This document shows positions 30,975 through 62,781 of a stretch of 64,000 nt of DNA, piece after piece. This DNA comes from Ancylobacter koreensis (GTDB taxonomy: Bacteria; Pseudomonadota; Alphaproteobacteria; Rhizobiales; Xanthobacteraceae). The stretch's first letter is position 1. Every line of letters begins with the position of its first letter. Location: the NCBI RefSeq assembly GCF_023016525.1, contig NZ_JALKCG010000001.1:1426001-1490000 (forward strand). The letters are read 5' to 3'. The position numbers and the translations under genes were made by a program. The notes under the pieces are model-generated. The model saw only the letters and a list, made by a program, of their open reading frames with translations, was not told the DNA's origin and made no database searches.

Positions 30975-30999
30975 CAAGAAAAGCAACGGGAGCCTCATC

Positions 31000-34802: not shown

Positions 34803-37091
<2,289 letters not shown>

Positions 37092-42630: not shown

Positions 42631-42632
42631 TC

Positions 42633-43439: not shown

Positions 43440-43450
43440 GGGAGGGCGGC

Positions 43451-44203
43451 ATGACCCTTTTCGGCTATCGCGTGCCCATGATGGCCTCGCTCCTCGTCTG
43501 GTGCGTCATCTGGGAGATCGTCGGGCGCTCCGGCGCCATGTTCCTCGTCCCCCCGCTCTCGCATGTGCTGGTCGCGGCGGTCGCTCTCGTGCAGACCGGC
43601 ACCTGGCAGGCGGCGGCGCTCACCACGCTCAACAGCTTCCTGATCGGCATGGTTTTTGCGATCGTCGTCGGCGTGGCGATCGGCGTGCTGATGGGGCGCT
43701 CGGTGACGGCGGACAACCTGCTCGGCATCTGGGTCAACATCTTCGTCTCGGCGCCGCTCTCCGCGCTGGTGCCGGTGCTGATGATCCTGTTCGGCATGGG
43801 CGAGACGACGGTGGTCGTCACCGTCTTCCTCTTCGCGGTCTGGATCATCGTGCTCGACACGCGGGCGGGCGTGCAGGGCGTGCCGAACTCGCTCATCGAG
43901 ATGGGCCGCAGCTACGGCGCCTCGCGCGCCACGCTCTACGGCAAGATCATCCTGCTTGCCGCGCTGCCGGAAATCCTCGCCGGTATCCGGTTGGGTGTGG
44001 TACGCGGCGTGAAAGGCGTCGTGATCGGCCAGCTTCTGGTATCGATCATCGGCTATGGCGAATTGTTCGAGCTCTACTCGCGCAATTTCGACATGGAGAA
44101 CTTCTGGGCTCTGACCATCATCCTGTTCGCTGCGGCGATGGGACTATCGGCCCTGATCGAAAGCATTGAGAAACGCGTCGACTATTATGCGGGAGTACGC
44201 TGA
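43451..44203 (+). CDS. ABC transporter permease (SsuC/TauC family), second
   Basis: The 250-aa inner-membrane permease has about six helices and the loop NSLIEMGRSYGASRATLYGKIILLAALP. It differs clearly from the first permease, so the importer probably has an asymmetric pore. GGGGAGGGCGGC precedes the ATG. The stop overlaps the next gene's ATG by one base. Confidence 0.88.
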   Translation: MTLFGYRVPMMASLLVWCVIWEIVGRSGAMFLVPPLSHVLVAAVALVQTGTWQAAALTTLNSFLIGMVFAIVVGVAIGVLMGRSVTADNLLGIWVNIFVSAPLSALVPVLMILFGMGETTVVVTVFLFAVWIIVLDTRAGVQGVPNSLIEMGRSYGASRATLYGKIILLAALPEILAGIRLGVVRGVKGVVIGQLLVSIIGYGELFELYSRNFDMENFWALTIILFAAAMGLSALIESIEKRVDYYAGVR

Positions 44204-46380: not shown

Positions 46381-47070
46381 ATGAAGCTGCAGCAACTCGT
46401 TCAGGAGCCCTTGCACGAACAGGCCTATGCGGCGCTGCGCGAAGCCTTGCGCACCGGGCGTTTCAAGCCGGGCCAGGCGATGACGATCCGCGGCCTCGGC
46501 AAGGATCTCGGCATCTCGGCGACGCCGGTGCGCGAGGCGCTGCAACGGCTCATCGCCTCGCAGGCGCTGCAATTGCAGCCCAACCGCACCATCATCGTGC
46601 CGGTGCTCACCCGCCGCCGCTTCCAGGAGATCACCAAGGTCCGCGTGCGTCTTGAAGGCCTTGCGGCGCTGGAGGCAGCGCCGCGCCTTACCAGCCGCGA
46701 CATCGCCGAGCTGGAGGCCCTCTCGTCGGCGATGACCGCCGACATACGCGAGCGCCGCTTCAACGACTACCTCGCCAACAACGAGCGGTTCCATTTCAGG
46801 CTCTACGACGCCTCGAAGATGGAATTTCTGCGCGAACTCATTGATCTGGCTTGGCTTCAGATCGGCCCGTGGCTCAACGCGCTGGCCAGCGAGGGGCGTT
46901 TCCACGCCATCGCCAACACGGTGCACGACGAGATCATCGCCCTCGCCTCGGCCGGCGACGCCAATGGCGTGTGCGAGGCGGTGCAGCGCGACATTCTGGA
47001 GGCAGCGCGCCTGCTGATGCGCTTGCTCGACGACGAGGAGAATGTCCGCCCGCTGGCCGCCGCCGGCTAG
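46381..47070 (+). CDS. GntR-family regulator (FCD) of the diol dehydratase operon
   Basis: The 229-aa regulator has a winged helix (LRTGRFKPGQAMTIRGLGKDLGISATPVREALQRLIASQALQ) and an FCD ligand domain (NNERFHFRLYDASKMEFL, NTVHDEIIALASAGD). It stands 107 bp upstream of, and codirectional with, the nine-gene ABC/dehydratase operon. TGTTATAACA palindromes occur before both, which strongly suggests autoregulation and control of the operon. A small acid or phosphorylated pathway intermediate is a likely effector. Confidence 0.9.
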   Translation: MKLQQLVQEPLHEQAYAALREALRTGRFKPGQAMTIRGLGKDLGISATPVREALQRLIASQALQLQPNRTIIVPVLTRRRFQEITKVRVRLEGLAALEAAPRLTSRDIAELEALSSAMTADIRERRFNDYLANNERFHFRLYDASKMEFLRELIDLAWLQIGPWLNALASEGRFHAIANTVHDEIIALASAGDANGVCEAVQRDILEAARLLMRLLDDEENVRPLAAAG

Positions 47071-47177: not shown

Positions 47178-48002
47178 ATGGTCGGCGAGTCACGTTGGGT
47201 GCAGTGGGTATCCCACCTCATTCTGGGCAGCGCCTCGGCAATGGTGCTGCTGCCCCTGCTGTGGGTCCTGCGCACCTCCTTCGCCGACAAGGTGGTGGCC
47301 TATCAGATGCCGCCCCAGCTCCTCTTCGCGCCGACGCTGGACAATTACCGCGACGTGCTGCTGCGCTTCGATTTCGGTTCCTTCTTCCTGAACAGCCTCA
47401 TCGTCGCACTGACGACGACCGCCATCGCCCTGCTGCTCGGCGCGCTCGCCGCCTACGCCATCGACCGCTTCCGCACCGGCGGCCCGGTCATGCCGCTGGC
47501 GATCCTCGCCACGCAGATGATGCCGCCGATCGTACTGGTCATCCCGTTCTTCCTCATCTTCAAGCAGCTCGGCCTCGCCGACAGCCATCTCGGCCTCGTC
47601 ATCACCTACCTGACCTTCAACCTGCCCTATGTGGTCTGGTTGCTGATGAGCTTCTTCAGGCGGGTGCCGCGCGAACTCGACGAGGCGGCGCTGATCGACG
47701 GTGCCGGCCCGTTCACCGTGTTCTGGCGCATCGTGCTGCCGGCGGCGCTGCCGGGCATCGGCGCGGCGGCGGTGCTCTCCTTCGTGCTGTGCTGGAACGA
47801 GTTCCTGTTCGCCCTGATGCTCACGGGGCAGCAGACCAAGACGCTGCCGGTCGCCATTTCCAGCCTGGTGACGCAGCAGGGCACGGCCATCGGCGCGGTG
47901 TGCGCCTCCACCATGCTCGCCATCGCGCCGATGGTGCTCATCTACTTCGCGATCCGAAAGCTCCTCGTTGCCGGGCTCAGCCTCGGCGCGGTGAAGGGCT
48001 GA
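47178..48002 (+). CDS. Sugar/polyol-type ABC permease (MalG family)
   Basis: The 274-aa inner-membrane permease has six helices and the EAA loop ELDEAALIDGAGPFTVFWRIVLPAALPGIG typical of MalG/CUT1 importers. CWNEFLFALMLTGQQTKTLPVAISS follows. Its start is preceded by GGAGACGCAGG. It is unusual that a permease, and not the binding protein, comes first in the operon. It resembles the MalG protein of the second ABC operon (59731-60528). Confidence 0.91.
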   Translation: MVGESRWVQWVSHLILGSASAMVLLPLLWVLRTSFADKVVAYQMPPQLLFAPTLDNYRDVLLRFDFGSFFLNSLIVALTTTAIALLLGALAAYAIDRFRTGGPVMPLAILATQMMPPIVLVIPFFLIFKQLGLADSHLGLVITYLTFNLPYVVWLLMSFFRRVPRELDEAALIDGAGPFTVFWRIVLPAALPGIGAAAVLSFVLCWNEFLFALMLTGQQTKTLPVAISSLVTQQGTAIGAVCASTMLAIAPMVLIYFAIRKLLVAGLSLGAVKG

Positions 48003-48058: not shown

Positions 48059-49354
48059 ATGAAACGCGTGAAATTCGGCACCAGTGCCGCCGTGCTCGCC
48101 TTTCTCGCCGCCTCGCCGGCGCTGGCCGCCAGCGACGTCTGCAAGGGCTCGGACATCAACATACTGATGGAGACGGTGCCCGACACCGATGCCCTGCAGG
48201 CCGTCAAGGGCGACTTCGAGAAGGAATACGGCGCCAAGGTCAACATCGAGGCGGTCAACTACTCGCTGATGCACGAGAAGCTGGTGCCGAGCCTCACGGC
48301 CTCGACCTCCAGCTACGACGTGCTGATCGTGGACAGCTACTGGGTCGGCGAGTTCAAGACCGCCGGCTGGATCAAGGACCTCGACGCCCTCATCGCCCGC
48401 GACAAGGTCGACACCAGTCTCTACTTCCCAGCCCTGATGGCGCTGAACGGCACGGTGCAGGGCAAGACCTACATGCTGCCCTTCTGGCAGTACGCGATGG
48501 GCATCCTGTACCGGAAGGATATCGTCGACGATCCGGCCTTCCAGGCGGCCTACAAGGAGCAGTTCAAGCGCGACTGGCGCATGCCCGCCACGCTTGAGGA
48601 ATTCGCCGAGGTGGTGAAGTGGGCCGGCAAGTACAAGGACATGTACGGCATCGCCATGGCCGCCCAGCGCGCCGACCCGGTGGTGATGGAAGCCACCAAC
48701 TATCTCTTCGCCGAGGGCGGCGACTTCTACGACCGCACGACGTGGAAGCCGACCATGGACACGCCCGAGGCGGCCAAGGCCGTTACCGTCTATGCCGACC
48801 TGATCAACAGCGCCGCCCAGCCGGGCGCGCTCGGCGCCAATTTCGACGACGTCGCCAACACGCTGAAGCAGGGCAAGGCGATCTTCGCGATCAGCTACCT
48901 GTTCCTGTTCCCGACGCTGGAAGACCCCAAGGATTCCACCGTGGTCGGCAAGATGGGCTTCGCCCCCGTGCCGGGCAAGGACAGCTTCCTCGGCGCCTGG
49001 GGCTGGGCAGTGCCGTCCAACGCCAAGAACCCGGACTGCTCCTGGGAATTCCTGAAGTGGGTGGAATCGAAGGACGTCGCCTACAAGCGCGCCCTTGCCG
49101 GCGGCCAGCCCACCCAGATGTGGATCTACAACGATCCCGAATTCATCAAGAAGTGGCCGGCCATGTCGCAGGTCGGCACCGCGCTGGAACACTCGAAGGG
49201 CCTGCCGATCATGTCGCGCTCCACCCAGCTGGTGGAGACCTTCGCCGAGGTGATGGGCTCGGTGCTCGCCAACAATGTCCCGCCCGCCACCGCGCTCGCG
49301 GACTCGCAGGACAAGTTCGGCCGCCTCGTGAAGGGCGACCCGCTCCTCAAGTGA
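48059..49354 (+). CDS. ABC solute-binding protein, extracellular family 1
   Basis: The 431-aa periplasmic protein has a signal peptide (residues about 1-23, ending SPALAAS). SDINILMETVPDTDALQ and YDVLIVDSYWVGEFKTAGWIKDLD parallel the binding protein at 58371-59645 (RALMEDVPETQ, WAGEFPTAGWLEDLN), so the two are paralogues. The ATG at 48059 is set by the signal peptide; the open frame upstream lies inside the permease gene. Ligand: a polyol, diol or amino-alcohol is inferred from the operon. A hairpin follows its stop. Confidence 0.91.
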   Translation: MKRVKFGTSAAVLAFLAASPALAASDVCKGSDINILMETVPDTDALQAVKGDFEKEYGAKVNIEAVNYSLMHEKLVPSLTASTSSYDVLIVDSYWVGEFKTAGWIKDLDALIARDKVDTSLYFPALMALNGTVQGKTYMLPFWQYAMGILYRKDIVDDPAFQAAYKEQFKRDWRMPATLEEFAEVVKWAGKYKDMYGIAMAAQRADPVVMEATNYLFAEGGDFYDRTTWKPTMDTPEAAKAVTVYADLINSAAQPGALGANFDDVANTLKQGKAIFAISYLFLFPTLEDPKDSTVVGKMGFAPVPGKDSFLGAWGWAVPSNAKNPDCSWEFLKWVESKDVAYKRALAGGQPTQMWIYNDPEFIKKWPAMSQVGTALEHSKGLPIMSRSTQLVETFAEVMGSVLANNVPPATALADSQDKFGRLVKGDPLLK

Positions 49355-49381
49355 GCCGCGCCGTCCACCGCACCATCCGCT

Positions 49382-49401
49382 CCGGGGGCTCGGCCCCCCG
49401 G
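49382..49401 (+). terminator. Intercistronic hairpin after solute-binding protein gene
   Basis: CCGGGGG pairs with CCCCCGG across a 6-nt loop, in the 80-bp gap between the binding-protein stop and the MalF-type permease. It probably skews expression towards the binding protein. Confidence 0.55.
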
Positions 49402-49434
49402 GGTTCGGGCCACACGACGTCAGGGTCGCGACCG

Positions 49435-50325
49435 ATGACCACCGCCACGATCAGGGCCGGTTCCCCCGGCCGCCGCCGCAACCTCGCGCAGTACGTCTTC
49501 GTCGCTCCGGCGGTGATCGTGCTGGCGCTCGTGGTGGCCGCGCCCCTGCTGTACTCGATCTATCTGAGCTTCCAGGAATACATCATCACCTACGGCATGG
49601 GCGACTTCGCCGGCTTCGCCAATTATCTGGCGGTGCTGTCGGACGACTTCGCCCATGTGTCGTGGGTCACGCTGAAGCTCACCCTGCTGTGCGTCGTCTT
49701 CGAGTTCGTCATCGCCTTCGGCCTCGCGCTGCTGCTGAACCAGCCGCATCTGCCGGGTCGCTCCTTCTACCTCATCGTGCTGATGATCCCGGTGCTGATG
49801 ACGCCGGTCGCCGTCGCGCTGATGTTCCGCCTGATGTTCAACCCGAGCCTGGGCATCGTGAACTGGGTCATCGGCCTTCTCGGCATCCCGCCGCAGGGCT
49901 GGTTCGGCGATCCCTCGCTGGCGCTCGGCACCGTGGTCTTCGTCGACGTCTGGCACGAGACCTCGCTGATGCTGCTCATGCTCTATGCCGGCCTCAAGGC
50001 GATGCCGGGCGAGCCGGTGGAGGCCGCGCGCATAGACGGCGCCAGCCGGCTGCAGATCCTGCGCTACGTGACCTGGCCGCTAATGAAGCCGGTGATCATG
50101 GTCACGCTGATGATCCGCATGATCGCGGCGCTCAAGAGCTACGACCTCATCTACATGCTGACCCAGGGCGGGCCGGGCAAGGCGACGGAGACCATCTCCT
50201 TCTACGCCTACCGCCTGGGCTTCCGCTTCCTCGACATCGGCCAGGCGGCCGCGGTCTCCTTCATCCTGCTGATCGTCGTGACCCTGCTGACCCTGGTGCT
50301 GCTGCGCACCATGCGGGAGAACTGA
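49435..50325 (+). CDS. Sugar/polyol-type ABC permease (MalF family)
   Basis: The 296-aa inner-membrane permease has six helices. The EAA loop is EPVEAARIDGASRLQILRYVTWPLMKP, and YDLIYMLTQGGPGKATETISFYAYR near the end is a CUT1 hallmark. The start is the ATG at 49435 after CAGGGTCGCG. The dehydratase gene starts one base after its stop, tying transport to catabolism. Confidence 0.91.
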   Translation: MTTATIRAGSPGRRRNLAQYVFVAPAVIVLALVVAAPLLYSIYLSFQEYIITYGMGDFAGFANYLAVLSDDFAHVSWVTLKLTLLCVVFEFVIAFGLALLLNQPHLPGRSFYLIVLMIPVLMTPVAVALMFRLMFNPSLGIVNWVIGLLGIPPQGWFGDPSLALGTVVFVDVWHETSLMLLMLYAGLKAMPGEPVEAARIDGASRLQILRYVTWPLMKPVIMVTLMIRMIAALKSYDLIYMLTQGGPGKATETISFYAYRLGFRFLDIGQAAAVSFILLIVVTLLTLVLLRTMREN

Positions 50326-50326: not shown

Positions 50327-52621
50327 ATGAGCGAGGCGCGCAAGGACGGCGCGGCGCCCGCCAGCAACCGCTGGCGCCGCTTCGGCGAGTGGGATGCCCG
50401 CCCGCTGCGGCAGGACCTGTTCGCCGCCGAGAACCCGGAAGCCGGCTTTTCGGTGTTCCGCAGCCCGCACGATCCCGCCCCCTCGCTCACCATCGAGGAC
50501 GGGCGCGTGAGCGTCATGGACGGCAAGGCGGCCGGCGATTTCGACATCATCGACGCCTTCATCGCCGCCCACCACATCGACCCGGAGATGGCCCCGGTCG
50601 CCATGGCCATGGATCCGGGCGCCATCGCCCGGATGCTGGTCGATATCAATGTGCCCCGACAGGATCTGGAGGCGCTCGCTCGCGGTTTGACGCCAGCGCG
50701 CCTCGCCGAGGTCGTGGGCCGGTTGTCCGCGCTTGAGATCACCTTTGCTTACGCGAAGATGCGCCAGCGCCAGAGCCCCGGCAACCAGGCCCACGTCACC
50801 AATGCCAAGGACGACCCACTCCAGCTCGCCGCCGATTCCGCGACCGCCGTCGCGCTCGGCTTCGACGAGATCGAGACGACGATGCGGGTTGCCTCCAATG
50901 GCTGGGCCAATGCGCTCGCCTGCACGGTGGGTGCGGCGGTCGGCCGGGGAGGGGTGCTGTTCCAGTGCTCCATCGAGGAGGCGGAGGAACTGCAGATCGG
51001 CCTCGCCGGCCTTGCCTCCTACGCCGAGACGGTCTCGGTCTACGGCACCGAGCGCGCCTTCATCGACGGCGACGACACGCCGTGGTCCAAGGCGCTGCTG
51101 ACCGCTGCCTACGCCTCGCGCGGCATCAAGGCGCGCTGCACCTCGGGCGCCGCCTCCGAATTGCTGATGGGCTTCCACGAGAAGCGCTCGCTGCTCTATC
51201 TGGAGGCCCGTTGCCTGTGCCTCCAGCGCGCCATGGGCGTGCAGGGCACGCAGAACGGCGGCATCGACGGCGCCCCGCTCACCGCCTCCATGGCGGGCGG
51301 CGTGCGCGAACTGATGGCGGAGAATCTGATCGCCGTCTGGCTCGGGCTGGAGTGCGCCTCCGGCAACGACACGCGCACCAGCGAATCCGAGATCCGCGTC
51401 GGCGCCAAGATCACGCCCTATCTGCTCGCCGGCTCCGACCTCATCTGTTCGGGCTTCGGCTCGATCAAGAAATACGACAACTCGTTCAACCCCTCGCTTT
51501 TCAACGGCGAGGAGATCGAGGACTACCTTGTCCTCCAGCGCGACTTTCAGGCCGATGGCGGCCTCACTCCCGTCGACGAGGACCAGGTGCTCGGCGTGCG
51601 CATGCGCGCGGTGGAGGCGCTGGCCGACGTGATGGATGAACTGGGCCTCGCCAAGGTCGGCCGCGACCGGCTGCTGTCGGTGGTCTTCGCCTCCGGCTCG
51701 CAGGAAACCGAGAGCTTCACCGCCGGCGAGGTCACGCCGATCAGCGCGCAGATCAAGGCGCGCGGCATCACCGCCGTCGACGTGGTGCGCGCGCTCGCCC
51801 GGCGCGGCTACGAGCCGGAGGCGGAGAACCTCCTCCTCATGCTGCGCCAGCGCCTGTCCGGCGACTATCTCCAGACCTCCTCCATCGTCCGCGACGGGCG
51901 GGTGATGAGCGCCATCAACGATCCCAACACCTATCGCGGCCCGCAGACCGGCTACCGCATGAGCGCGCCGCGCTGGGACGCCGTGCAGGGCATCCGCAAC
52001 GTGCTCACCCGCGAGCGCGTGCTGGCCGCCGAGGACATCAAGGATGCGGCCGAGGTCGACTGGCTGGTCGCGCGCGGGACGGCCGGCAGGGGCACGGACC
52101 CGAATGAGGTGGTGATCGGCGTCAGCCCCGGCTTCGCCCGCCAGCTCCACCGCACCACCGCCGGCCACCGGCTGGAGGATGTGGCGGAGGCGCTCGTCGG
52201 CGGCATCGCGGAGGGCGGCGGCACGGCGCGGCTGGTGCGCATGCTGCACACCGCCGACACCTCCTTCCTCGGCCTCGCCGCCGCCCGGCTGTCGGGCTCG
52301 GGCTACGGCATCGGCATCCAGGCCAAGGGCACCACGGTGCTGCACCAGGCCGACCGCATGCCCCATCTCAACATCGAGCTGTTCTCCAACGCGCCTCTGG
52401 CCAGCCTCGACCATTACCGCGCGCTCGGCCGCAACGCCGCCCGCTACACCCATGGCGAGGCGCCCGAGCCGGTGGTTGTGCCCACGCAGGGCGAGGCGCT
52501 CGGCGCCCGCTTCCATGTGCGCGTCGCGCTGCTCTACGCCATCGAGACCGCGCTGACCGATCCCGCGGCCGATCCGGTGGAACTCGACTATCGCCCCGAC
52601 GCGGGAGGCGCGAATGTCTGA
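50327..52621 (+). CDS. B12-dependent diol/glycerol dehydratase, fused large and medium subunits
   Basis: This 764-aa radical enzyme should remove water from a 1,2-diol to give an aldehyde, using adenosylcobalamin. Residues about 20-560 match PduC: AHVTNAKDDPLQLAADSA, SVYGTERAFIDGDDTPWSK, YLEARCLCLQRAMGVQGTQNG, LECASGND. Residues about 590-740 match PduD: VVIGVSPGFARQLHRT, ARLSGSGYGIGIQAKGTTV, LNIELFSNAPL. Separate subunits are the rule; this is a fusion. By K. oxytoca numbering plus 13, ligands Q154, H156, E183, E234, Q309, D348 and S375 are all kept, but the size-limiting Ser301 and Gln336 are Asp314 and Thr349. No reactivase is nearby. The substrate is unknown. Confidence 0.92.
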   Translation: MSEARKDGAAPASNRWRRFGEWDARPLRQDLFAAENPEAGFSVFRSPHDPAPSLTIEDGRVSVMDGKAAGDFDIIDAFIAAHHIDPEMAPVAMAMDPGAIARMLVDINVPRQDLEALARGLTPARLAEVVGRLSALEITFAYAKMRQRQSPGNQAHVTNAKDDPLQLAADSATAVALGFDEIETTMRVASNGWANALACTVGAAVGRGGVLFQCSIEEAEELQIGLAGLASYAETVSVYGTERAFIDGDDTPWSKALLTAAYASRGIKARCTSGAASELLMGFHEKRSLLYLEARCLCLQRAMGVQGTQNGGIDGAPLTASMAGGVRELMAENLIAVWLGLECASGNDTRTSESEIRVGAKITPYLLAGSDLICSGFGSIKKYDNSFNPSLFNGEEIEDYLVLQRDFQADGGLTPVDEDQVLGVRMRAVEALADVMDELGLAKVGRDRLLSVVFASGSQETESFTAGEVTPISAQIKARGITAVDVVRALARRGYEPEAENLLLMLRQRLSGDYLQTSSIVRDGRVMSAINDPNTYRGPQTGYRMSAPRWDAVQGIRNVLTRERVLAAEDIKDAAEVDWLVARGTAGRGTDPNEVVIGVSPGFARQLHRTTAGHRLEDVAEALVGGIAEGGGTARLVRMLHTADTSFLGLAAARLSGSGYGIGIQAKGTTVLHQADRMPHLNIELFSNAPLASLDHYRALGRNAARYTHGEAPEPVVVPTQGEALGARFHVRVALLYAIETALTDPAADPVELDYRPDAGGANV

Positions 52622-53045
52622 CGATCCCGCCGACGACCTGTCGCTCTACCCCGTCTCGGAGAAGGCGCCCGAGCGCGTGCGCACGCCCACCGGCAAGCCG
52701 CTCTCCGCGCTGACGCTGGAGGCGGTTCTCTCCGGCGAGATCGGGCCGGAGGACGTCGCCATCACGCCGGAGGCGCTGCTCCTGCAGGCGCGCATCGCCC
52801 GCGCCGCCGGACGCGCCACGCTGGCGGAGAACTTCGAGCGCGCGGCCGATCTCGTCCGCGTGCCGCAGGAGCTGATCCTCGACACTTATGAGCTGCTGCG
52901 CCCGGGCCGGGCCCGCGACGCGCAGCAGCTTCTCGACCGTGCGACGCTGCTGCGCCGCGACTATGGCGCCGCGCGCGTCGCCGCGCTGATCGAGGAGGCC
53001 GCCGACGTCTATACGCGCCGCGGCCTCTTCGTGAAGCGCTACTGA
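52614..53045 (+). CDS. Diol/glycerol dehydratase small subunit (PduE-like)
   Basis: The 143-aa protein matches PduE: LYPVSEKAPERVRTPTGKPLSALTLEAVLSGEIGPEDVAITPEALLLQARIARAAGR, then LAENFERAADLVRVP and ILDTYELLRPGRA. It packs against the large subunit of the dehydratase. The start overlaps the fused large/medium gene by 8 bp and the stop touches the ATPase start. The longer N-terminal extension that makes some Pdu subunits poorly soluble or targets them to shells is absent, consistent with a free cytosolic enzyme. Confidence 0.92.
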   Translation: MSDDPADDLSLYPVSEKAPERVRTPTGKPLSALTLEAVLSGEIGPEDVAITPEALLLQARIARAAGRATLAENFERAADLVRVPQELILDTYELLRPGRARDAQQLLDRATLLRRDYGAARVAALIEEAADVYTRRGLFVKRY

Positions 53046-54149
53046 GTGGGAGCACCGGCCTTGGCAGGCGTTACAATTCGGCAAGTCTCCAAGCATTTCG
53101 GGCCCGTGCGCGTGCTCGACGGGCTGGACCTCGCGATCGAGGACGGGGAGTTCGTGGTGCTCGTCGGTCCTTCGGGCTGCGGCAAGACCACGCTCCTGCG
53201 CATGATCGCCGGCCTTGAATCGGTCTCCGGCGGCGAGATCCGGATCGGCGAGCGGGACGTCACCTGGGTGGCGCCCAAGGACCGCGACATCGCCATGGTG
53301 TTCCAGTCCTACGCGCTCTACCCGCATATGACCGCCGCCGAGAACATGTCCTTCGGCCTCAAGCTGAACAAGACGCCCAAGGCCGAGATCGAGGCGCGCG
53401 TGGCCGAGGCGGCCCGCATGCTCAAGATCGAGCACCTGCTGGCGCGCAAGCCGCGCGAGCTTTCCGGCGGCCAGCGCCAGCGCGTGGCGATGGGGCGCGC
53501 CATCGTGCGCCGGCCGGCGCTCTACCTGTTCGACGAGCCGCTCTCCAATCTCGACGCGCAGCTGCGCACCAGCATGCGCACCGAGATCAAGCGCATGCAC
53601 CTCGCCGAAAAGAAGACGGTGGTCTACGTCACCCACGACCAGATCGAGGCGCTCACCCTGGCCGACCGCATCGTCGCCATGAACAAGGGCGACATCCAGC
53701 AGATCGGCACGCCCGACGATCTCTATCGGCGCCCGGCCTCCGTCTTCGTCGCCTCCTTCATCGGCTCGCCGGCGATGAGCTTCCTGCGCGGCACGCTGAC
53801 GGCGCCCGGTGCGGTGGCGCTGGAAGGGGTGGACACGCCGCTGCTGCTGCCGCCCTCCTGGGCCGGCATCGCCGCCGCGCCGGGCACGCCCGTGCTGCTC
53901 GGCCTGCGGCCGGAAGCCTTCGTCTACGCGCCCGGCAGCGCGGGGCGCTACGGGCTCGACGTGCAGGTCAACGTCGTCGAGCCCTGCGGCGCCGAGGTCT
54001 ACGTCGTCGGCGAGGTCGCCGGGCAGGAGGTCACGCTGCGCTGCGCGCCCGGCAACGTGCCCCCGCTCGGCACGACCACCCGCGTCGCGATCGACCTCGA
54101 CGGCATCCATCTGTTCGACGCGGCGAGCGAGCGGAGCCTGCGGCCATGA
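53046..54149 (+). CDS. Sugar/polyol-type ABC ATP-binding protein (MalK/UgpC family)
   Basis: The 367-aa ATPase shows Walker A GPSGCGKTT, Q-loop AMVFQSYALYPHMT, signature LSGGQRQRVAMGRAI, Walker B LYLFDEPLSNLDAQLR and H-loop YVTHDQIEALTLADRI, plus the C-terminal OB-fold regulatory domain of the MalK branch. It starts with GTG exactly after the PduE-like stop. Placement after the dehydratase genes, away from its permeases, shows that transporter and enzyme genes evolved as one unit. Confidence 0.92.
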   Translation: MGAPALAGVTIRQVSKHFGPVRVLDGLDLAIEDGEFVVLVGPSGCGKTTLLRMIAGLESVSGGEIRIGERDVTWVAPKDRDIAMVFQSYALYPHMTAAENMSFGLKLNKTPKAEIEARVAEAARMLKIEHLLARKPRELSGGQRQRVAMGRAIVRRPALYLFDEPLSNLDAQLRTSMRTEIKRMHLAEKKTVVYVTHDQIEALTLADRIVAMNKGDIQQIGTPDDLYRRPASVFVASFIGSPAMSFLRGTLTAPGAVALEGVDTPLLLPPSWAGIAAAPGTPVLLGLRPEAFVYAPGSAGRYGLDVQVNVVEPCGAEVYVVGEVAGQEVTLRCAPGNVPPLGTTTRVAIDLDGIHLFDAASERSLRP

Positions 54150-54919
54150 TCCTCAAGGACCGCATCGCCATCGTCACCGCCGCCGGCTCGGGCATCGGCC
54201 GGGCGGTCGCCATCGCCTTCGCGCGCGAGGGCGCCCTCGTCTACGCCACCGACCGCGACGGCGCGGCGGCCGAGACGACCGCCGGGCTCGCCGGGAAGGG
54301 CGCGCAGGGGCATGTCCTCGATGTCTCAGACAGCGCAGCCATTGAGGCGCTTATCGCCGATATCCGGTCCCGCCATGGCCGGCTCGATATCCTGCACAAC
54401 CATGCCGGTCTTCAGGTCGCCGGCGGGCTCGAAGAGATCGACGGCGGGCAGCTCGACCGCTCCTGGGCGATCAATGTGCATGCCCAGTTCGCCGCCTGCC
54501 GGGCGGCGATGCCGATCATGAAGGCGCAGGGCGGCGGGGTGATCCTCAACACCGCGTCGAATGCCGGCGTGTTCCTCGACAAGGGGATGCTCGCCTACAT
54601 CACCACCAAATCGGCGGTCATCACCATGACCAAGCAGATCGCGCTCGACTATGCCCGCTTCGGCATCCGCGTGAACGCCATCTGCCCGGGCTGGGTCGAT
54701 ACCGCCTTCAACGACCCCTACACCGCCCAGCTCGGCGGGCGCGGGGCGCTGGAGAAGGTGGTGTCCGGCATGGTGCCGATGGGCCGCTTCGGCCGGCCGG
54801 AGGAGATCGCCGAGGCGGCGCTGTTCCTCGTCTCCGACCGTTCCTCCTACATCACCGGCCATGCGCTGGTGATCGACGGCGGCGAATGCCTGGCGGGCGG
54901 CGCCAACTCGACGCCGTGA
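54146..54919 (+). CDS. SDR-family dehydrogenase
   Basis: The 257-aa Rossmann enzyme has TAAGSGIGRAVA, Asp-Arg-Asp after beta-2 (favouring NAD), NHAG in place of NNAG, and the catalytic set Ser in NTASNAG with Tyr-x3-Lys in AYITTKSAV. Start and ATPase stop overlap (ATGA). In this setting it may oxidise a diol or amino-alcohol hydroxyl or act on the dehydratase product. A comparable SDR (1-amino-2-propanol dehydrogenase) accompanies a kinase and phospho-lyase in the mycobacterial RMM locus. Confidence 0.88.
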   Translation: MILKDRIAIVTAAGSGIGRAVAIAFAREGALVYATDRDGAAAETTAGLAGKGAQGHVLDVSDSAAIEALIADIRSRHGRLDILHNHAGLQVAGGLEEIDGGQLDRSWAINVHAQFAACRAAMPIMKAQGGGVILNTASNAGVFLDKGMLAYITTKSAVITMTKQIALDYARFGIRVNAICPGWVDTAFNDPYTAQLGGRGALEKVVSGMVPMGRFGRPEEIAEAALFLVSDRSSYITGHALVIDGGECLAGGANSTP

Positions 54920-54951: not shown

Positions 54952-56010
54952 ATGTCCGATGTCCTGACGGACGCCCCGCGGGCCGACGCGCTCGCGACGC
55001 CGTCCCCCTCGCTCACCGCCGGCCGGATCGAGCGGATCGTCCGCGACGAGTACGGGTTTGAGGGCCGGGCGCGGCTGCTCACCTCCGAGCGGGACCAGAA
55101 CTTCCATTTCGCCGTGCCCGGCGGCGAGGCGCTGGTGATCAAGGTCACCAACCCTGCCGAGGACCGGCTGGTCACCGATTTCCAGACACGGGCGCTGCTG
55201 CACATCGAAGAGCGCGACCCCGCGCTGCCCGTCCCCTGCCTGCGCCGCACGCTCAAGGGCGAGGCCGTCTTCGTGCTGGAGGAGGACGGCGCGGGCATGG
55301 TGGTGCGCGCGCTGAGCTGGCTGGAGGGCGTGCCGCTCTATCAGGTTGAGCGCACCCCCCGCCAGCGGGCGGCGCTCGGCGCGGCGCTGGCACGCATGGG
55401 GCTGGCGCTCAGAGATTTCCGCCATCCGGCGGCCGGCCATTTCCTGCAATGGGACATTCAGCACGCCGCGAAGCTGCGCCCGCTGCTGGAGCATATCGAG
55501 GACCCGACGCGGCGGGCGCTGGCGACGGAATTTCTCGACCGCTTCGATGCCGAGGTCGCGCCCGTGCTGCCGGGCCTGCGCCGGCAGATCGTCCATAACG
55601 ACCTCAACCCGTTCAACGTGCTGGTGGCCGCCGACGACCACGACCGGGTGACGGGCATCTTCGACTTCGGCGACATGGTGGAGACGGCGCTGGTGAATGA
55701 CGTCGCCGTCGCCTGCAGCTACCAGCTCGCGCCGGGTGACGATCCGCTGGCCGGCGTCATCGACTTCGCCGCCGCCTATTGCCGGGTGCGCCCGCTCGAC
55801 GAGACCGAGCTCGGCCTGCTGTTCGACCTCACCGCCGCGCGCATGCTCACCACCGTCGCCGTCACCAACTGGCGGGCGCTGCGCTACCCGGAGAACCGCG
55901 CCTACATCCTGCGCAACAGCCCCTCCGCCTGGGACGGGCTGCAGCGCTTCGCCGTCATCGGCCCCGAGCGCGCCCGCGCGCGGCTCGTCGCCGCCTGCCT
56001 GGGGAACTAA
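54952..56010 (+). CDS. APH-family small-molecule kinase (amino-alcohol/hydroxylysine kinase-like)
   Basis: The 352-aa kinase has the aminoglycoside/choline-kinase fold: FHFAVPGGEALVIKVTNP (ATP-site Lys), Brenner motif IVHNDLNPFNVLV (His-x-Asp-x4-Asn), and the metal site GIFDFGDMVET. It should phosphorylate a hydroxyl of a small amine or alcohol. Directly downstream (2 bp) is a class III PLP enzyme; the same kinase plus phospho-lyase pair degrades hydroxylysine, ethanolamine or 1-amino-2-propanol. The ATG at 54952 follows the SDR stop; a longer frame runs from 54886. Antibiotic resistance is unlikely in this context. Confidence 0.86.
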   Translation: MSDVLTDAPRADALATPSPSLTAGRIERIVRDEYGFEGRARLLTSERDQNFHFAVPGGEALVIKVTNPAEDRLVTDFQTRALLHIEERDPALPVPCLRRTLKGEAVFVLEEDGAGMVVRALSWLEGVPLYQVERTPRQRAALGAALARMGLALRDFRHPAAGHFLQWDIQHAAKLRPLLEHIEDPTRRALATEFLDRFDAEVAPVLPGLRRQIVHNDLNPFNVLVAADDHDRVTGIFDFGDMVETALVNDVAVACSYQLAPGDDPLAGVIDFAAAYCRVRPLDETELGLLFDLTAARMLTTVAVTNWRALRYPENRAYILRNSPSAWDGLQRFAVIGPERARARLVAACLGN

Positions 56011-56012: not shown

Positions 56013-57329
56013 ATGTCCATGGTCAATGCGTTCGATCCCGATGCCGCCGCCGCCCTGCCGGAGGCGGAGAAGGAGCTGATCCGCCGCCGCGAGAAGCTGC
56101 TCGGCCCGGCCTACCGGCTGTTCTACCAGCAGCCGGTGCATATCGTGCGGGGCGAGGGCGTGTGGCTCTACGACCCGCAAGGCAACGCCTATCTCGACGT
56201 CTACAACAACGTCGCCTCGGTGGGGCACTGTCACCCGAAAGTGGTGCAGGCGCTGGCGCGGCAGGCCTCCACCCTCAATACCCATACGCGCTACCTGCAC
56301 GAGACCATCCTCGACTACGCCGAGCGGCTGCTGGCGAAGGTGCCGGCCGAGCTCGGCCATATCATGTTCACCTGCACGGGCTCGGAGGCGAACGATCTCG
56401 CGCTCCGCATCACCCGCGCCTATACCGGCCGGCAGGGCATGATCGTCACACGCCTTGCCTATCACGGGCTCACCAGCGCGGTGTCGGAGCTCTCGCCCTC
56501 GCTCGGCGACTTCGTGAAGCCCGGCCCGCATGTGCGCTTCGTCGCGCCGCCGGACGGCTATCGCGGCGAGGCCGATGTCGGCGCCGCCTTCGCTGCTGGG
56601 GTGCGGGCGGCCATCGACGACATGCGCGCGCAGGGCATCGAGCCGGCGGCGCTGCTGGTCGACACCATCTTCTCCTCCGACGGCGTGTTCGCCGATCCGC
56701 CGGGCTTTCTTAAGGAGGCGGTCGCGGCCATCCGCGAGGCGGGCGGCCTGTTCATCGCCGACGAGGTGCAGCCGGGTTTCGGCCGGGTGGGGCCGCAGTT
56801 CTGGGGCTTCACTCGCCACGGGCTGGTGCCGGATATGGTGACGGTCGGCAAGCCGATGGGCAACGGCCACCCGATGGCGGGCGTCATGATGAAGCCGCAT
56901 CTGGTCGAGGAGTTCGGCCGCAAGGCGCGCTATTTCAACACCTTCGGCGGCAATCCGGTGGCCTGCGCGGTCGGCCTCGCCGTGCTCGACGTGATGGAGG
57001 GCGAGGGCCTGCCGGAGCGGGCGCGCGAGGTGGGCGACTATATGCGCGCGGGCCTGCGCGATCTCGCCGGCCGCTGTGAGGCGATCGGGGACGTGCGCGG
57101 TGCCGGTCAGTTCACCGGGCTGGAGCTGGTGGAGGACCGGGCCACCAAGGCGCCGGCCGCCGGCCTCACCACCCGCATCGTCAACGGCCTGCGCGAGCGC
57201 CGCGTGCTGATCAGCGCCACCGGGCCGGGCGCCAACATCCTGAAGATCCGTCCGCCGCTGGCCTTCGCCCGCGAGCATGCCGATATCTTCCTCGACCGCT
57301 TCGCCGACGCGCTCAAGGCGAACGCCTGA
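56013..57329 (+). CDS. Class III PLP enzyme, aminotransferase or amino-alcohol-phosphate phospho-lyase
   Basis: The 438-aa fold-type I enzyme resembles AGXT2L phospho-lyases: YLDVYNNVASVGHCHPKVVQ, LNTHTRYLHETILDYAERL, TGSEANDLALRITRA, AYHGLTSAVSELSPS, IADEVQPGFGRVG and the PLP Lys in VGKPMGNGHP. Those enzymes cleave O-phosphorylated amino-alcohols to aldehyde, ammonia and phosphate. The adjacent kinase gene strengthens this over a plain omega-transaminase. It ends the operon; a hairpin and a convergent operon follow. Confidence 0.88.
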   Translation: MSMVNAFDPDAAAALPEAEKELIRRREKLLGPAYRLFYQQPVHIVRGEGVWLYDPQGNAYLDVYNNVASVGHCHPKVVQALARQASTLNTHTRYLHETILDYAERLLAKVPAELGHIMFTCTGSEANDLALRITRAYTGRQGMIVTRLAYHGLTSAVSELSPSLGDFVKPGPHVRFVAPPDGYRGEADVGAAFAAGVRAAIDDMRAQGIEPAALLVDTIFSSDGVFADPPGFLKEAVAAIREAGGLFIADEVQPGFGRVGPQFWGFTRHGLVPDMVTVGKPMGNGHPMAGVMMKPHLVEEFGRKARYFNTFGGNPVACAVGLAVLDVMEGEGLPERAREVGDYMRAGLRDLAGRCEAIGDVRGAGQFTGLELVEDRATKAPAAGLTTRIVNGLRERRVLISATGPGANILKIRPPLAFAREHADIFLDRFADALKANA

Positions 57330-57356: not shown

Positions 57357-58235
57357 CTAGCGGCGGCGCTCCAGCGTGGCGAAGAACAGCACGGTCAGCC
57401 CCAGCACGATCAGCAGCAGCACGAAGGAGGCCGCCGCGCCCTCGTTGAGATGCAGCCCGAGAAAGGCACGGCGATAGGCGAAGAAGCTCAGCACCTCGGT
57501 GGAGGTGCCCGGCCCGCCCTTGGTGAGGATGTAGGGCAGGTCGTAGGTGCGGAATTCGTTGATGAGCTGGATGATCACCGCGATGGCGGCGACCGGCCGC
57601 AGCATCGGCAGGGTGATGTACCAGAACTGGTGGAAGGGCGTCGCCCCGTCGACCTCGGCGGCCTCATAAGGGTCGCGCGGCAGCGAGGCGAGGCCGGCGG
57701 CGAGGATCAGCACCACGAAGGACGTCTGCTGCCAGATGTCGATGCCGGCCATGGTCCACAGCGCGAGGTCGGCATTGCCGAGCCAGTCGACGCGCGGCAG
57801 GCCCAGCGCTTCCAGCGTATGGTTGACGATGCCGAGGTTGGGCTGGAGCAGCATGCGCCAGATCAGCGCCACGCTCACCGGCGACATCGCCATTGGAATG
57901 GTGAGCACGGCGAAATAGACCGGCTTCATCGTCACGGTGCGGTTGATCATCAGCGCCACCGCGAGGCCGATGACGAACTCGCCGGCCACCGTCACCACGG
58001 AATATTTGATGGTCAGCCACAGCGCGCCCCAGAACAGCGGATCGTTCATCATCGCCGCGTAGTTGGCGAGGCCGACGAACGGGGTGAGGGAGGGGCGCAG
58101 CAACGTGAGCGAGGAGACCGAGATCACCGCCGCATAGGCGAGCGGAAAGCCCATGACGACGGCGAGCATGAGGAGGCCCGGCGCCGCGAAGGCCCAGCCG
58201 TTCCGCCAGTCCCGATCCATGAGGGCCGCACGCAT
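57357..58235 (-). CDS. Sugar/polyol-type ABC permease (MalF family), second system
   Basis: The 292-aa inner-membrane permease has six helices and the EAA loop DPYEAAEVDGATPFHQFWYITLPMLRP; TYDLPYILTKGGPGTSTEVLSFFAYRRAF near its end closely resembles the MalF-type protein at 49435-50325. It is last in the minus-strand operon SDR-ATPase-MalG-SBP-MalF. A 12-bp hairpin separates it from the binding protein gene. Confidence 0.91.
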   Translation of the reverse strand: MRAALMDRDWRNGWAFAAPGLLMLAVVMGFPLAYAAVISVSSLTLLRPSLTPFVGLANYAAMMNDPLFWGALWLTIKYSVVTVAGEFVIGLAVALMINRTVTMKPVYFAVLTIPMAMSPVSVALIWRMLLQPNLGIVNHTLEALGLPRVDWLGNADLALWTMAGIDIWQQTSFVVLILAAGLASLPRDPYEAAEVDGATPFHQFWYITLPMLRPVAAIAVIIQLINEFRTYDLPYILTKGGPGTSTEVLSFFAYRRAFLGLHLNEGAAASFVLLLIVLGLTVLFFATLERRR

Positions 58236-58282
58236 CGTGTCGTTCCGTCTCGTTCAAAGGCCCGCAGGCCGCATCGAAAGGG

Positions 58283-58309
58283 GGAGCCCCGCCCGGCGGG
58301 CGGGGCTCC
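58283..58309 (-). terminator. Intercistronic hairpin after solute-binding protein gene
   Basis: GGAGCCCCGCCC pairs perfectly with GGGCGGGGCTCC around a 3-nt loop (12-bp stem), between the binding-protein stop (58371) and the MalF start (58235). It is the strongest of the post-SBP hairpins in the window. Confidence 0.65.
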
Positions 58310-58370
58310 AACGCTCACACATTGAGGGGTCGGGCGTGAGCGTTTCTCGTTCGCCTTTTGGCGAATTGGC

Positions 58371-59645
58371 TCACTTGGCGAGAAGCTGGGTCAGGCCGTC
58401 AGCCGCCGCCTTGAGCGCGTCCTCGGGCTTGGCCTGTCCGCCCGCCGCCAGCGAGAGCTGGGCGCCGAGCACGTCCTCGTACTGCGCGGAATAGGCGAAG
58501 ATCGGGAAGGATTTGCCCGAGGCGACGACATCCAGCGCGGTCTTGTAGAAGGGGTACTTCGCCAGCACCGCCGGGTCGGTGTAGACGTCCGCGCGCACCG
58601 GTGCGTGGCCTTCCAGCGCGCGGGCGACCGAGGCCTTCTTGCCCTGCACCCACTCGATGAACTTCCAGGCCGCCGCCTTGGATTCATCCGAGGTGTTCTT
58701 CGGGATGCCCCAGCCCCAGCCGCCGCTCTCGCCATGGCCGCCCGGCATCACCGACAGCGCCAGCTTGCCGGCGACCTTCGGGCACTTCTCCTTGTTGTCG
58801 AGCTGCGGCAGCATCCACCAGTAGGTGACCATGCTGAAGGCGTCGCCCGCGCACATCAGGCGCATCGTGTCGTCGAGCGTGGCGGAGAGCGCGCCCTGCT
58901 GCGCGCCGTTCTGCACGTTGTCGGCGTAAAGCTTGAGCGCGGTCAGGCCCTCGGGGCTGTTCAGCGCCACCTTGCGGCCGGCATCGAGATAGGCGCCGCC
59001 GGCGGAGAACAGGTAGTTTGAGAACTCCATCGCGTTCGGGTCGCCGCGCTGGCCCTGCATGGCGGCGCCGACCACCTGGCCGCCCGCCTTGAAGAACTTG
59101 GAGAGCTCGACATATTCGGCCAGCGTCTTCGGCGGGACCAGCTCCTTGCCGGTCTTCGCCTTGTAGGCCGCCTTGACCTTGGCGTCTTCCAAGAGGTCCG
59201 TGCGGTAGATCAGGCCCATCGAGTAGTTGTACATGGGCAGGATCGGCGTCGCGTCCTTGGTCTGGCCGAGCAGGTCCAGCATGGACGGGATGAAGGGCTT
59301 CAAGTCGAAGCCGGACTTGGCGATGTAGGGGTTGAGGTCTTCCAGCCAGCCGGCGGTCGGGAATTCGCCGGCCCAGAGGAAGTCGACCTCCAGCACGTTG
59401 TAGTAGCTCTCCGGCGAGACGAGCTGGGCCACCAGCTTGTCGTGCATGTCGCCATAGCCGATCTTCTCGAACTCGACCTTGATGCCGGTCTCCTTCTCGA
59501 ATTCCGGCAGCATCTTCTCGATGATCTGGGTCTCCGGCACGTCCTCCATCAGGGCGCGCAGGGTGACGGACTGGGCGTGGGCGGGAACCGCCGCCAGCAA
59601 TGTGGCGCCGAGCAGCGCCGCCTTAAGGCTACACTTCAACTGCAT
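58371..59645 (-). CDS. ABC solute-binding protein, extracellular family 1, second system
   Basis: The 424-aa periplasmic protein has a signal peptide (residues about 1-24, ending VPAHAQS). It is paralogous to the binding protein at 48059-49354 and similar to sorbitol/mannitol-type (SmoE) proteins by general pattern. The start at 59645 is decided by GGAGAACGAG directly upstream on the minus strand and the signal peptide. The ligand is probably a polyol, inferred from the SDR in the operon. Confidence 0.91.
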   Translation of the reverse strand: MQLKCSLKAALLGATLLAAVPAHAQSVTLRALMEDVPETQIIEKMLPEFEKETGIKVEFEKIGYGDMHDKLVAQLVSPESYYNVLEVDFLWAGEFPTAGWLEDLNPYIAKSGFDLKPFIPSMLDLLGQTKDATPILPMYNYSMGLIYRTDLLEDAKVKAAYKAKTGKELVPPKTLAEYVELSKFFKAGGQVVGAAMQGQRGDPNAMEFSNYLFSAGGAYLDAGRKVALNSPEGLTALKLYADNVQNGAQQGALSATLDDTMRLMCAGDAFSMVTYWWMLPQLDNKEKCPKVAGKLALSVMPGGHGESGGWGWGIPKNTSDESKAAAWKFIEWVQGKKASVARALEGHAPVRADVYTDPAVLAKYPFYKTALDVVASGKSFPIFAYSAQYEDVLGAQLSLAAGGQAKPEDALKAAADGLTQLLAK

Positions 59646-59730
59646 CTCGTTCTCCTGTTCCTCTGGTTCGGGCATCGCCCGGCGGCGCACCCGTTGGGTC
59701 GTCCGCGCCCGCGAGGGCACGCTGGCGGCG

Positions 59731-60528
59731 TCACTTCACGCTGCCGAAGGTCAGTCCCTGCACGATGAAGCGCTGGATGAAGCGCGAGGCGATCACCAGC
59801 GGCAGGATGGCGAGCACCACGCCGGCGGAGACCTTGGCGATCTGCACGCCGTTCGATGTCTGCAGCGAGGAGAGCGCCACCGGCACGGTGGCCGTCTGTG
59901 GCCCGCTCAGCACCAGCGCGAACAGGAACTCGTTCCAGGTGAGGATGAAGCCGAGCACGCCGGCCGCCGCGATTCCCGGCAGCGAGACCGGCAGCACCAC
60001 CCGCCAGAAGGCGCCCCAGGCGCTCGCCCCGTCGGTCTGCGCCGCCCATTCGAGATCGACCGGGATGCCCTCGAAGAACCCCATCAGGATCCAGATGAGG
60101 AAGGGCAGGTTGAGCGCGGCATAGACGATGATGAGGCCGGTCAGCGAGTTGGTGAGACCGACGGCGCGGAACAGCGCGAAGGCCGGCAGCACGATGGCGA
60201 CGGGGGGCAGCATCTGCGTCGCCAGCACCGCGAAGCGCCCGCCCTTGCCGCTGGTCTTGAAGCGGGCAAAGGCGTAGCCGGTCATCGCCGCGAAGGGCAG
60301 GGCGATCACCACCGAGCCGGTCGCGACGATCAGGCTGTTCAGATAGGAGCGCCCGTAGCGGGTGCTGGTGAACAGGTCGACATAGTTGTCGAGCGTGAAG
60401 GCCGGCATCAGGTCGGAGGAGTAGGACAGCGGCTCGGGCAGGAAGCTGGTGCGCACCACCCAGAGCAGGGGCAGGAGGATGGCGGCACAGACGAGGAGCA
60501 ATCCGAAGTGAAGAGCGAGCCGCCGCAT
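59731..60528 (-). CDS. Sugar/polyol-type ABC permease (MalG family), second system
   Basis: The 265-aa inner-membrane permease has six helices and the EAA loop DLEWAAQTDGASAWGAFWRVVLPVSLPGIA. TWNEFLFALVLSGPQTATVPVALSS parallels the MalG-type protein at 47178-48002. The ATG at 60528 has GGAGGAAACGGC in front; the longer open frame overlaps the ATPase gene and is spurious. The ATPase gene ends 16 bp upstream. Confidence 0.91.
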   Translation of the reverse strand: MRRLALHFGLLLVCAAILLPLLWVVRTSFLPEPLSYSSDLMPAFTLDNYVDLFTSTRYGRSYLNSLIVATGSVVIALPFAAMTGYAFARFKTSGKGGRFAVLATQMLPPVAIVLPAFALFRAVGLTNSLTGLIIVYAALNLPFLIWILMGFFEGIPVDLEWAAQTDGASAWGAFWRVVLPVSLPGIAAAGVLGFILTWNEFLFALVLSGPQTATVPVALSSLQTSNGVQIAKVSAGVVLAILPLVIASRFIQRFIVQGLTFGSVK

Positions 60529-60544
60529 GCCGTTTCCTCCGGGC

Positions 60545-61669
<1,125 letters not shown>

Positions 61670-61784
61670 AGATCTTCCTTGGGTCTTCCTCGGGCTGCCC
61701 AGCGGGACCCTCCCAATGCTGCGTCCGCAGCGGCGGGTCGTGTCGGCGGGCAGGGTCGTAAACAAACAAGTTCGAACGTAATGG

Positions 61785-61796
61785 GAAAATACGAAC
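61785..61796 (-). promoter_or_regulatory. Candidate DeoR half-site before the ABC ATPase gene
   Basis: On the minus strand this reads GTTCGTATTTTC, close to GTTCGTTTTC at 62698-62707 before the regulator. A GTTCGAAC palindrome lies next to it (61770-61777). Both spots flank genes likely controlled by the DeoR protein. Confidence 0.4.
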
Positions 61797-61820
61797 GCCG
61801 GCATCAGCCGGCGTTGTCGA

Positions 61821-62621: not shown

Positions 62622-62665
62622 CTGTGCAACTCCTCTGTTGGGCGCCGACTTTATCCGAACATCAT

Positions 62666-62688
62666 CACACATCAAGTGGAAATGTGTG
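62666..62688. promoter_or_regulatory. Inverted repeat between SDR and DeoR genes
   Basis: CACACAT-N9-ATGTGTG is a perfect 7-bp inverted repeat in the 160-bp divergent promoter region, inside an AT-rich patch. It may bind the adjacent DeoR-family protein or a global regulator. Confidence 0.45.
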
Positions 62689-62707: not shown

Positions 62708-62781
62708 TGCGCTAGACAGAGTCAGCCGGGTTTGCGCACAAGGCTGTGAGGCGGGGCTGCGCAACCGGGCAAGGGGCAGAG

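Follow-up and report, generated by a model that had tools for sequence, protein, structure and literature searches.

Natural fusions of dhaB1 and dhaB2 have been described in Mesorhizobium, Mycobacterium, and Hyphomicrobium, all aerobic hosts, in the passages of a 2016 paper that deal with them (PMC4777399). Those passages also record dhaF and dhaG as absent for three alphaproteobacteria and, citing Liu et al. 2010, attribute a slightly different active site to the fused enzymes. The fusion in M. loti and M. smegmatis is restated in part of a 2020 review (PMC7674605). The alpha-beta (large-medium) fusion and the missing reactivating factor are already published and not new; an earlier note on this DNA had set the fused form against the three separate chains of enteric enzymes. 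Here we analyzed a 64,000-nucleotide stretch of the 4.06-Mb genome of Ancylobacter koreensis (the window; G000:C11:1426001-1490000), which codes for such an enzyme. Like the published examples, it joins the large and medium subunits, keeps the small subunit separate, and is encoded without a reactivating factor. We consider it probable that this is a fused adenosylcobalamin-dependent diol dehydratase, fed by a CUT1 ATP-binding cassette (ABC) importer, that acts on an imported 1,2-diol functionalised at C3 and works without a DdrA-type reactivase. Beyond the published fusion we add a clade with Asp at position 301, the accompanying pocket change, a reactivase survey, a tendency linking residue 336 with gene context, and a phospholyase-like pyridoxal phosphate (PLP) enzyme as neighbour.

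The fused gene begins with ATG and is an unbroken open reading frame (ORF) for a 764-aa chain with large- and medium-subunit domains (Table 1). The ORF of the separate small subunit overlaps it by 8 bp (52614-52621). Both features had been predicted from the letters alone and stand. The limits given then for the large part (about residues 20-560) fit the Pfam match, while those for the medium part (about 590-740) were slightly too narrow, the NCBIfam match covering residues 573-754. PF02286, PF02288, and PF02287 all exceed the Pfam cut-offs. The scores against NCBIfam fall under the curated cut-offs for the large (781.5 against 788), medium (168.5 against 248), and small subunit (157 against 196 for the best model), and we therefore regard the enzyme as a divergent member of the family. 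The window's genome codes for one large subunit and for a CobA/CobO adenosyltransferase.

A scan of genome contigs gave 159 relatives, of which the best 80 were kept; all 80 match the fused query over nearly its full length. Since the match runs unbroken across both parts in these 80, a sequencing or assembly error behind the fusion is ruled out, as is a missed stop between the parts, which the earlier note had named as one result that would overturn it. The five best relatives of the fused protein are 86-90% identical to it and four of them are named Ancylobacter, in keeping with the alphaproteobacterial host proposed before. A predicted structure (AlphaFold, 34-row alignment, mean pLDDT 71.8) holds both folds in one chain: the large-subunit part fits 1mmf_A and the medium-subunit part 1iwp_B, each with a TM score of 0.89 by target length.

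The fused enzymes differ from those with separate subunits in the substrate pocket, numbered here as in the K. oxytoca diol dehydratase. The metal and catalytic residues Q141, H143, E170, E221, Q296, D335, and S362, whose importance is set out in part of PMC7674605, and Phe374 are unchanged in all 116 rows where position 301 can be read. The fragments L022 and L023 are unreadable there, fragment L024 was outside the set, and L021 and L069 are cut at the start. All fused rows but L006 have Asp at position 301 (102 of 103), and all 13 rows with separate subunits have Ser. Among the 102 Asp301 rows the window appears twice (as itself and as L001), and the two collections share some identical loci. 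Cys302 is replaced by Gly and Ala174 by Arg in every one of the 102, the Arg174 also in L006, and Met373 is replaced by Ser in 97 and by Thr in five. Position 336 is more variable, with Ala in 71, Thr in 23, Cys in five, and Val, Gln, and Ser in one each; Gln336 corresponds to Thr349 of the window's protein. When glycerol lies in the inactivating pose in the Klebsiella enzyme, its C3 hydroxyl points at Ser301, and inactivation by glycerol becomes slower with Ala at 301 or 336, according to the relevant parts of PMC7674605 and PMC9850924 (the second residue, Gln336, is printed as Gln335 in PMC7674605). With its metal ligands intact and an acidic residue opposite C3, the pocket suggests a 1,2-diol substrate that carries a hydrogen-bond donor or a positive charge at C3.

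To place the enzyme we used a tree of the large-subunit region with 77 rows (71 different), made by a quick method without bootstrap and with seven pocket columns omitted; L006 fell into the chosen outgroup, which therefore did not form one side of a branch. The 66 Asp301 fused rows, 66 of 66, form one side of a branch (SH-aLRT 100, length 2.51) and are separate from PduC/DhaB. This agrees with the distinct branch outside ordinary pdu/dha enzymes that had been suggested. The window's enzyme does not group with PduC, does not have Ser301/Gln336, and has no shell genes in its genome; tree position and pocket residues rule out an ordinary Pdu enzyme. Five Ancylobacter-type rows group with it (support 99), and together they fall in a 26-row branch (support 92) with Thr, Cys, Val, or Gln at 336, and the Thr336 rows L084 and L104 branch elsewhere. 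The fused state changes twice on the tree, and a single origin is also possible. The fused protein L006, from genome G256, sits on a long branch with an uncertain place. It is a fused large-medium subunit of another type (L118:7909-10140) with Ser301 and Ala336, accompanied by a small subunit and, judged by eye, an HbpS/GlcG heme-binding-type protein; its genome has no match to the DDR reactivase. It is possibly an independent fusion.

The large-subunit family is present in 22 of 297 genomes of the window's order and in six of 398 in a draw from its phylum. Identity to the window is 65-90% in 32 of 33 loci compared and 43% in the other, L006, so the sampled loci are close relatives and more distant fused enzymes fall outside the sample. 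No mycobacterial fused sequence was found among the 80 kept loci or the plasmid rows listed, which do not name every organism; the genome search covered the window's phylum, and the fetched loci are without actinobacterial sequences.

To determine whether these enzymes are encoded with a reactivase, 23 of the 26 genomes with a large subunit were surveyed, leaving out G038 and G120 (split genes) and G114 (71% complete). The reactivating factor (DDR) family is found in none of the 18 genomes with a fused enzyme (17 of the Asp301 type and G256), the window's own genome having no match, and in all five with separate subunits. A reactivase alpha gene is also annotated in all seven separate-subunit plasmid loci fetched. 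Haloarchaeal plasmids (L111, L112, and L113) encode separate-subunit dehydratases together with a reactivase and have ABC or tripartite transporter genes nearby. EutA matches occur in 18 of the 23 genomes, six above the cut-off; only that of G627, which has separate subunits, is full-length, the other 17 are short, and the window's genome has none. EutA is thereby ruled out as a general substitute. Under the beta-swap hypothesis, as given in part of PMC7674605, the beta subunit of the reactivase displaces that of the enzyme during reactivation. A fused beta should hinder such a swap, so the absence of DDR fits the hypothesis. The same source reports that engineered alpha-beta fusions are active and that one was inactivated more slowly in cell lysate.

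On the forward strand the fused gene lies in the order GntR/FCD regulator, CUT1 permease, solute-binding protein, CUT1 permease, fused dehydratase, small subunit, MalK-like ATPase, short-chain dehydrogenase/reductase (SDR), APH-type kinase, and class III PLP enzyme. Pfam and NCBIfam matches confirm the CUT1 transporter, SDR, kinase, and PLP enzyme named in the earlier note. The best solved relatives of the solute-binding protein are trehalose/maltose-, sugar-, and sorbitol-type binding proteins and SmoF, and homology searches with the SDR were too unspecific to name a substrate. Among solved structures the PLP enzyme scores 393 bits with 5g4i, named a phospholyase, 373 with 6tor, an ethanolamine-phosphate phospho-lyase, and 197 with the next, and by sequence appears closer to phospholyases than to transaminases. 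The kinase matches the kinase part of the kinase-aminotransferase family NF004799/PRK06148 (276 bits); a PDB search at E 0.001 gave no solved relative. From a vicinal amino alcohol, an APH-type kinase and a phospholyase together produce an aldehyde, ammonia, and phosphate, and by analogy we infer that the window's pair may act on such a compound. PF00936 has no match in the window's genome, which rules out a microcompartment enzyme there.

We also examined the gene context of 81 loci (the window and L025-L104), sorted by residue 336, with family profiles built for the analysis. As several loci are truncated by the end of a contig, these counts are minimum values. The 18 Thr336 loci, window included, code for CUT1 parts in 13, the window's SDR family in 16, the kinase in nine, and the PLP family in nine. 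Pot-type parts are found in one to three of them, and a shell protein, an APC permease, or an isochorismatase-like gene in none. All nine Thr336 loci holding the kinase and PLP genes also encode the GntR/FCD regulator family. The four Cys336 loci, of the Ancylobacter type, all have CUT1 parts and none has the kinase or PLP family. Of the 56 Ala336 loci, 42 have a complete-enough Pot-type (polyamine-type) or APC transporter, two have CUT1 parts, and 13 have neither; an isochorismatase-like hydrolase is encoded in 39, an APH kinase in 30, two PLP families in 19 and 10, an acylating-type aldehyde dehydrogenase in 13, and a protein like the bacterial microcompartment (BMC) protein BMC-H in 11. Mesorhizobium has loci of both kinds: L100 and L102 are Ala336 with APC/isochorismatase-type genes, L035 and L039 are Thr336 with CUT1.

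Across the 81 loci a kinase of either type is present in 40, a PLP enzyme of either type in 37, and both in 31. The full window set (CUT1, SDR, kinase, PLP enzyme, and GntR) is encoded in eight, window included, and likewise on annotated plasmids of Agrobacterium cucumeris and Shinella zoogloeoides. The Thr336 loci L035-L039 encode CUT1, dehydratase, SDR, and (by eye) a LuxR-type regulator without a kinase or PLP gene, so the core is importer, dehydratase, and SDR. The earlier note had treated the fused, transport-coupled form as one thing; the separate branch stands, and the single trait does not, as CUT1 coupling occurs in only part of the fused branch. L032 has a different sugar-type ABC system and L044 a related binding protein, each with an amidase nearby. 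A branched-chain-type ABC system is found, by gene order and eye, at L049, L054, and L089, the last also with an iron alcohol dehydrogenase and a glutamine-synthetase-family gene related to gamma-glutamylputrescine synthetase. BMC matches occur in 11 of the 17 genomes with an Asp301 enzyme, in eight of these within about 15 kb of it on the same contig. Six alphaproteobacterial loci (L053, L075, L085, L087, L088, and L099) have, by sequence and eye, BMC-H-, BMC-T-, and in several cases BMC-P-like proteins beside a fused Asp301 dehydratase. An acylating-type aldehyde dehydrogenase accompanies them, in many cases together with a class III PLP enzyme, and the clusters look RMM-like.

In the pathway we propose, the CUT1 importer would take up a small polyol-like solute and the dehydratase would convert a terminal 1,2-diol to an aldehyde (R-CHOH-CH2OH to R-CH2-CHO), an activity proposed because every residue that holds the metal or either hydroxyl is conserved. 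The Asp that replaces Ser301 would make 1,2-propanediol a less preferred substrate than one with a hydrogen-bond donor or positive charge at C3, such as a longer polyol or an amino-diol. A second route, through the kinase and the phospholyase-type PLP enzyme, could yield an aldehyde from a vicinal amino alcohol, and the SDR may act on an aldehyde or alcohol within the pathway. Being fused, beta would stay on alpha and could not make the departure needed for beta-swap reactivation, so fusion and reactivase loss would go together. The changed pocket and the import-linked gene set suggest a substrate other than classic propanediol.

Several points weigh against this proposal. The literature searched yielded no activity for any natural fused enzyme, and the role of Asp301 is deduced from sequence. 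The model is weak at residues 312-320 and 347-357, which cover both pocket sites, so Asp301 cannot be placed from it. The solute-binding protein resembles sugar and polyol binders, a poor fit to an amino-diol, and no aldehyde dehydrogenase is found among the operon genes scanned. The kinase and phospholyase are present in only nine of the 18 Thr336 loci and hence lie outside the core. Residue 336 changes seven times on the tree, and its link with gene context is for that reason a tendency. The 18 genomes without a reactivase represent one or two fusion events, making the association of fusion with reactivase loss suggestive and not statistical proof.

What the substrate is divides the remaining explanations. 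A more specific version, possible though doubtful, makes the Asp301 branch an amino-diol dehydratase in which Asp301 grips a C3 ammonium, for example converting 3-amino-1,2-propanediol to 3-aminopropanal, with the fusion doing away with the chaperone on which the studied relatives depend for repair, and the kinase and phospholyase opening the same compounds from the amino-alcohol end. It would give one cause to the polyamine-type importers, amino-alcohol-type kinases, amide-hydrolase-like genes, and the one gamma-glutamylputrescine-synthetase-like gene. The amine version gains from the neighbours of the clade, a polyol version from the window's importer and the adjoining CUT1/SDR/DeoR set. Under the latter, which we find unlikely, the window's enzyme and its CUT1-linked kin would act on a sugar alcohol of at least four carbons, giving a 2-deoxy-aldehyde in polyol catabolism. 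The binding protein is nearest to sugar and sorbitol-type binders, a second CUT1, SDR, and DeoR set adjoins the operon here and, with an FGGY kinase and a HAD phosphatase, in Shinella zoogloeoides, and L041, L043, and L045 carry an FGGY-type kinase cluster. However, the kinase and phospholyase point to an amino alcohol, the two amidase-bearing loci (L032 and L044) are both Thr336, and the adjoining set may be an independent neighbour.

It is similarly unlikely that this is an ordinary 1,2-propanediol or glycerol dehydratase with pocket changes that do no more than reduce suicide inactivation in an aerobe without a reactivase. Such fused enzymes are treated as glycerol dehydratases in the passages of PMC4777399 and PMC7674605 that concern them, Ala at Ser301 or at the adjacent Gln slows glycerol inactivation in Klebsiella, and Ala336 is found in 71 of the 102 Asp301 rows. 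The clade, however, has Asp and not Ala at 301, a stronger acceptor that should favour the inactivating pro-S pose of glycerol, and dha-type genes, such as one for an iron alcohol dehydrogenase or a glycerol facilitator, are absent from the operon genes scanned. Likewise unlikely, in our view, is a microcompartment-free cousin of the RMM2/Aut loci, in which 1,2-propanediol via the dehydratase and 1-amino-2-propanol via the kinase and phospholyase would both yield propanal. Many Ala336 loci carry a kinase whose representative matches 6ef6 (E 5e-84), which we take to be the M. smegmatis aminopropanol kinase. The window itself has the RMM2 gene set, as listed in the relevant part of PMC4207490, with an ABC importer in place of the permease. 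Set against this, the genome has no shell gene, no acylating aldehyde dehydrogenase is among the operon genes scanned, a sugar-type importer would be odd for propanediol or aminopropanol, and the pocket is unlike that of propanediol enzymes.

Table 1. Features of the dehydratase operon in the window (positions counted from its first letter).
Feature	Position	Strand	Basis
GntR/FCD-family regulator, first gene ahead of operon	46381..47070	+	Pfam FCD and GntR
CUT1-type ABC permease (MalG-like)	47178..48002	+	Pfam BPD_transp_1
CUT1 solute-binding protein, start chosen at MKRVKFG within longer ORF	48059..49354	+	Pfam SBP_bac_1 on longer ORF
CUT1-type ABC permease (UgpA/MalF-like), start chosen at MTTATIR	49435..50325	+	Pfam BPD_transp_1 on longer ORF 48619-50325
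Fused large and medium subunit, B12-dependent diol/glycerol dehydratase	50327..52621	+	ORF, Pfam, NCBIfam; relatives fused alike
Large-subunit domain (PduC/DhaB1-like), residues 15-562	50369..52012	+	PF02286, 691 bits, E 1.4e-207
Codon of Asp314 (Ser301 of K. oxytoca diol dehydratase, pocket residue)	51266..51268	+	Alignment columns
Medium-subunit domain (PduD/DhaB2-like), Pfam core residues 603-713	52133..52465	+	PF02288, 81 bits, E 8.3e-23
Separate small subunit (PduE/DhaB3-like), 143 aa	52614..53045	+	PF02287, 142 bits, E 1.4e-41
MalK/UgpC-type ABC ATPase	53046..54149	+	NCBIfam NF008653, 468.7 against cut-off 432
SDR oxidoreductase	54146..54919	+	Pfam adh_short_C2
APH-type kinase, putative amino-alcohol kinase, ORF extends to 54886	54952..56010	+	Pfam APH; NF004799/PRK06148 kinase part
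Class III PLP enzyme, phospholyase type	56013..57329	+	Best solved relatives 5g4i, 6tor

Next to the dehydratase operon, at 57357-62675 on the reverse strand, lies the second CUT1 importer (two permeases, binding protein, and ATPase) with its SDR, and divergent from it a DeoR-type regulator (62746-63642, forward strand). The comparable set of Shinella zoogloeoides, which includes the FGGY kinase and HAD phosphatase, is beside its operon at L110, and another is found in Pseudogemmobacter (L041), judged by gene clusters. Upstream, also on the forward strand, 40799-44203 codes for an NMT1-type binding protein and, by eye, TauC/SsuC-type permeases and an ATPase. After these come genes of the FAA-hydrolase family (44203) and the isocitrate-dehydrogenase family (44942). 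Other forward-strand genes assigned by eye are an aldehyde-dehydrogenase-like gene (12153-13622), an amino-acid antiporter with an arginine-deiminase-like gene (29541-32235), a KatG-like catalase-peroxidase (34911-37091), and a NodU/CmcH-type carbamoyltransferase (37625-39379).

Diol and glycerol dehydratases are industrial enzymes limited by suicide inactivation and by the need for a two-part chaperone. The present clade is large and natural; its enzymes are fused, come from aerobic hosts without the chaperone family, and are changed at 301 and 336, the very two pocket positions where engineers introduced substitutions to make inactivation slower. It permits a direct test of whether fusion or pocket confers stability. 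An amino-diol or higher-polyol substrate, if true, would widen the known chemistry of the family and add a B12-dependent step to an alphaproteobacterial catabolic pathway.

The literature searched on fused dehydratases, their context, and amino-diol substrates held no description of an ABC-coupled fused-dehydratase operon, and a term search of the main text of the 2021 microcompartment catalogue (PMC8217296) did not find 'diol dehydratase'. The nearest described enzymes are the fused DhaB1-DhaB2 proteins of Mesorhizobium, Mycobacterium, and Hyphomicrobium, which share the single large-medium chain, the free small subunit, and the lack of dhaFG. They were published as dha-regulon glycerol enzymes, and an importer or phospholyase context is not part of those passages. 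RMM2 loci, as the relevant part of PMC4207490 describes them, encode a diol dehydratase, aminotransferase, phosphotransferase, SDR, permease, and GntR regulator, and a bifunctional compartment is considered there. Like the RMM2/Aut loci of Mycobacterium and Rhodococcus, described in parts of PMC4207490 and PMC6620236, the window has a kinase, class III PLP enzyme, SDR, and GntR regulator beside the dehydratase. It differs in that its genome is without shell proteins, a CUT1 importer replaces the permease, and the operon genes scanned include no acylating aldehyde dehydrogenase. The window's PLP enzyme scores about twice as high with the phospholyases 5g4i and 6tor as with other solved class III enzymes, and it is set in a dehydratase operon. 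Klebsiella glycerol dehydratase alpha-beta fusions (9vi2 and related PDB chains) also have alpha and beta in one chain, of 754 aa, with a native-type pocket region in the alignment; these we take as engineered, since the PDB names alpha and beta for one chain. The Klebsiella diol dehydratase (1dio) and glycerol dehydratase DhaB (1iwp, 1mmf) share the subunit folds and the metal and catalytic residues with the window's enzyme, to which the enterobacterial enzymes are about 42-48% identical, but have separate subunits, Ser301/Gln336/Met373, and, in the dha loci fetched, an adjoining reactivase.

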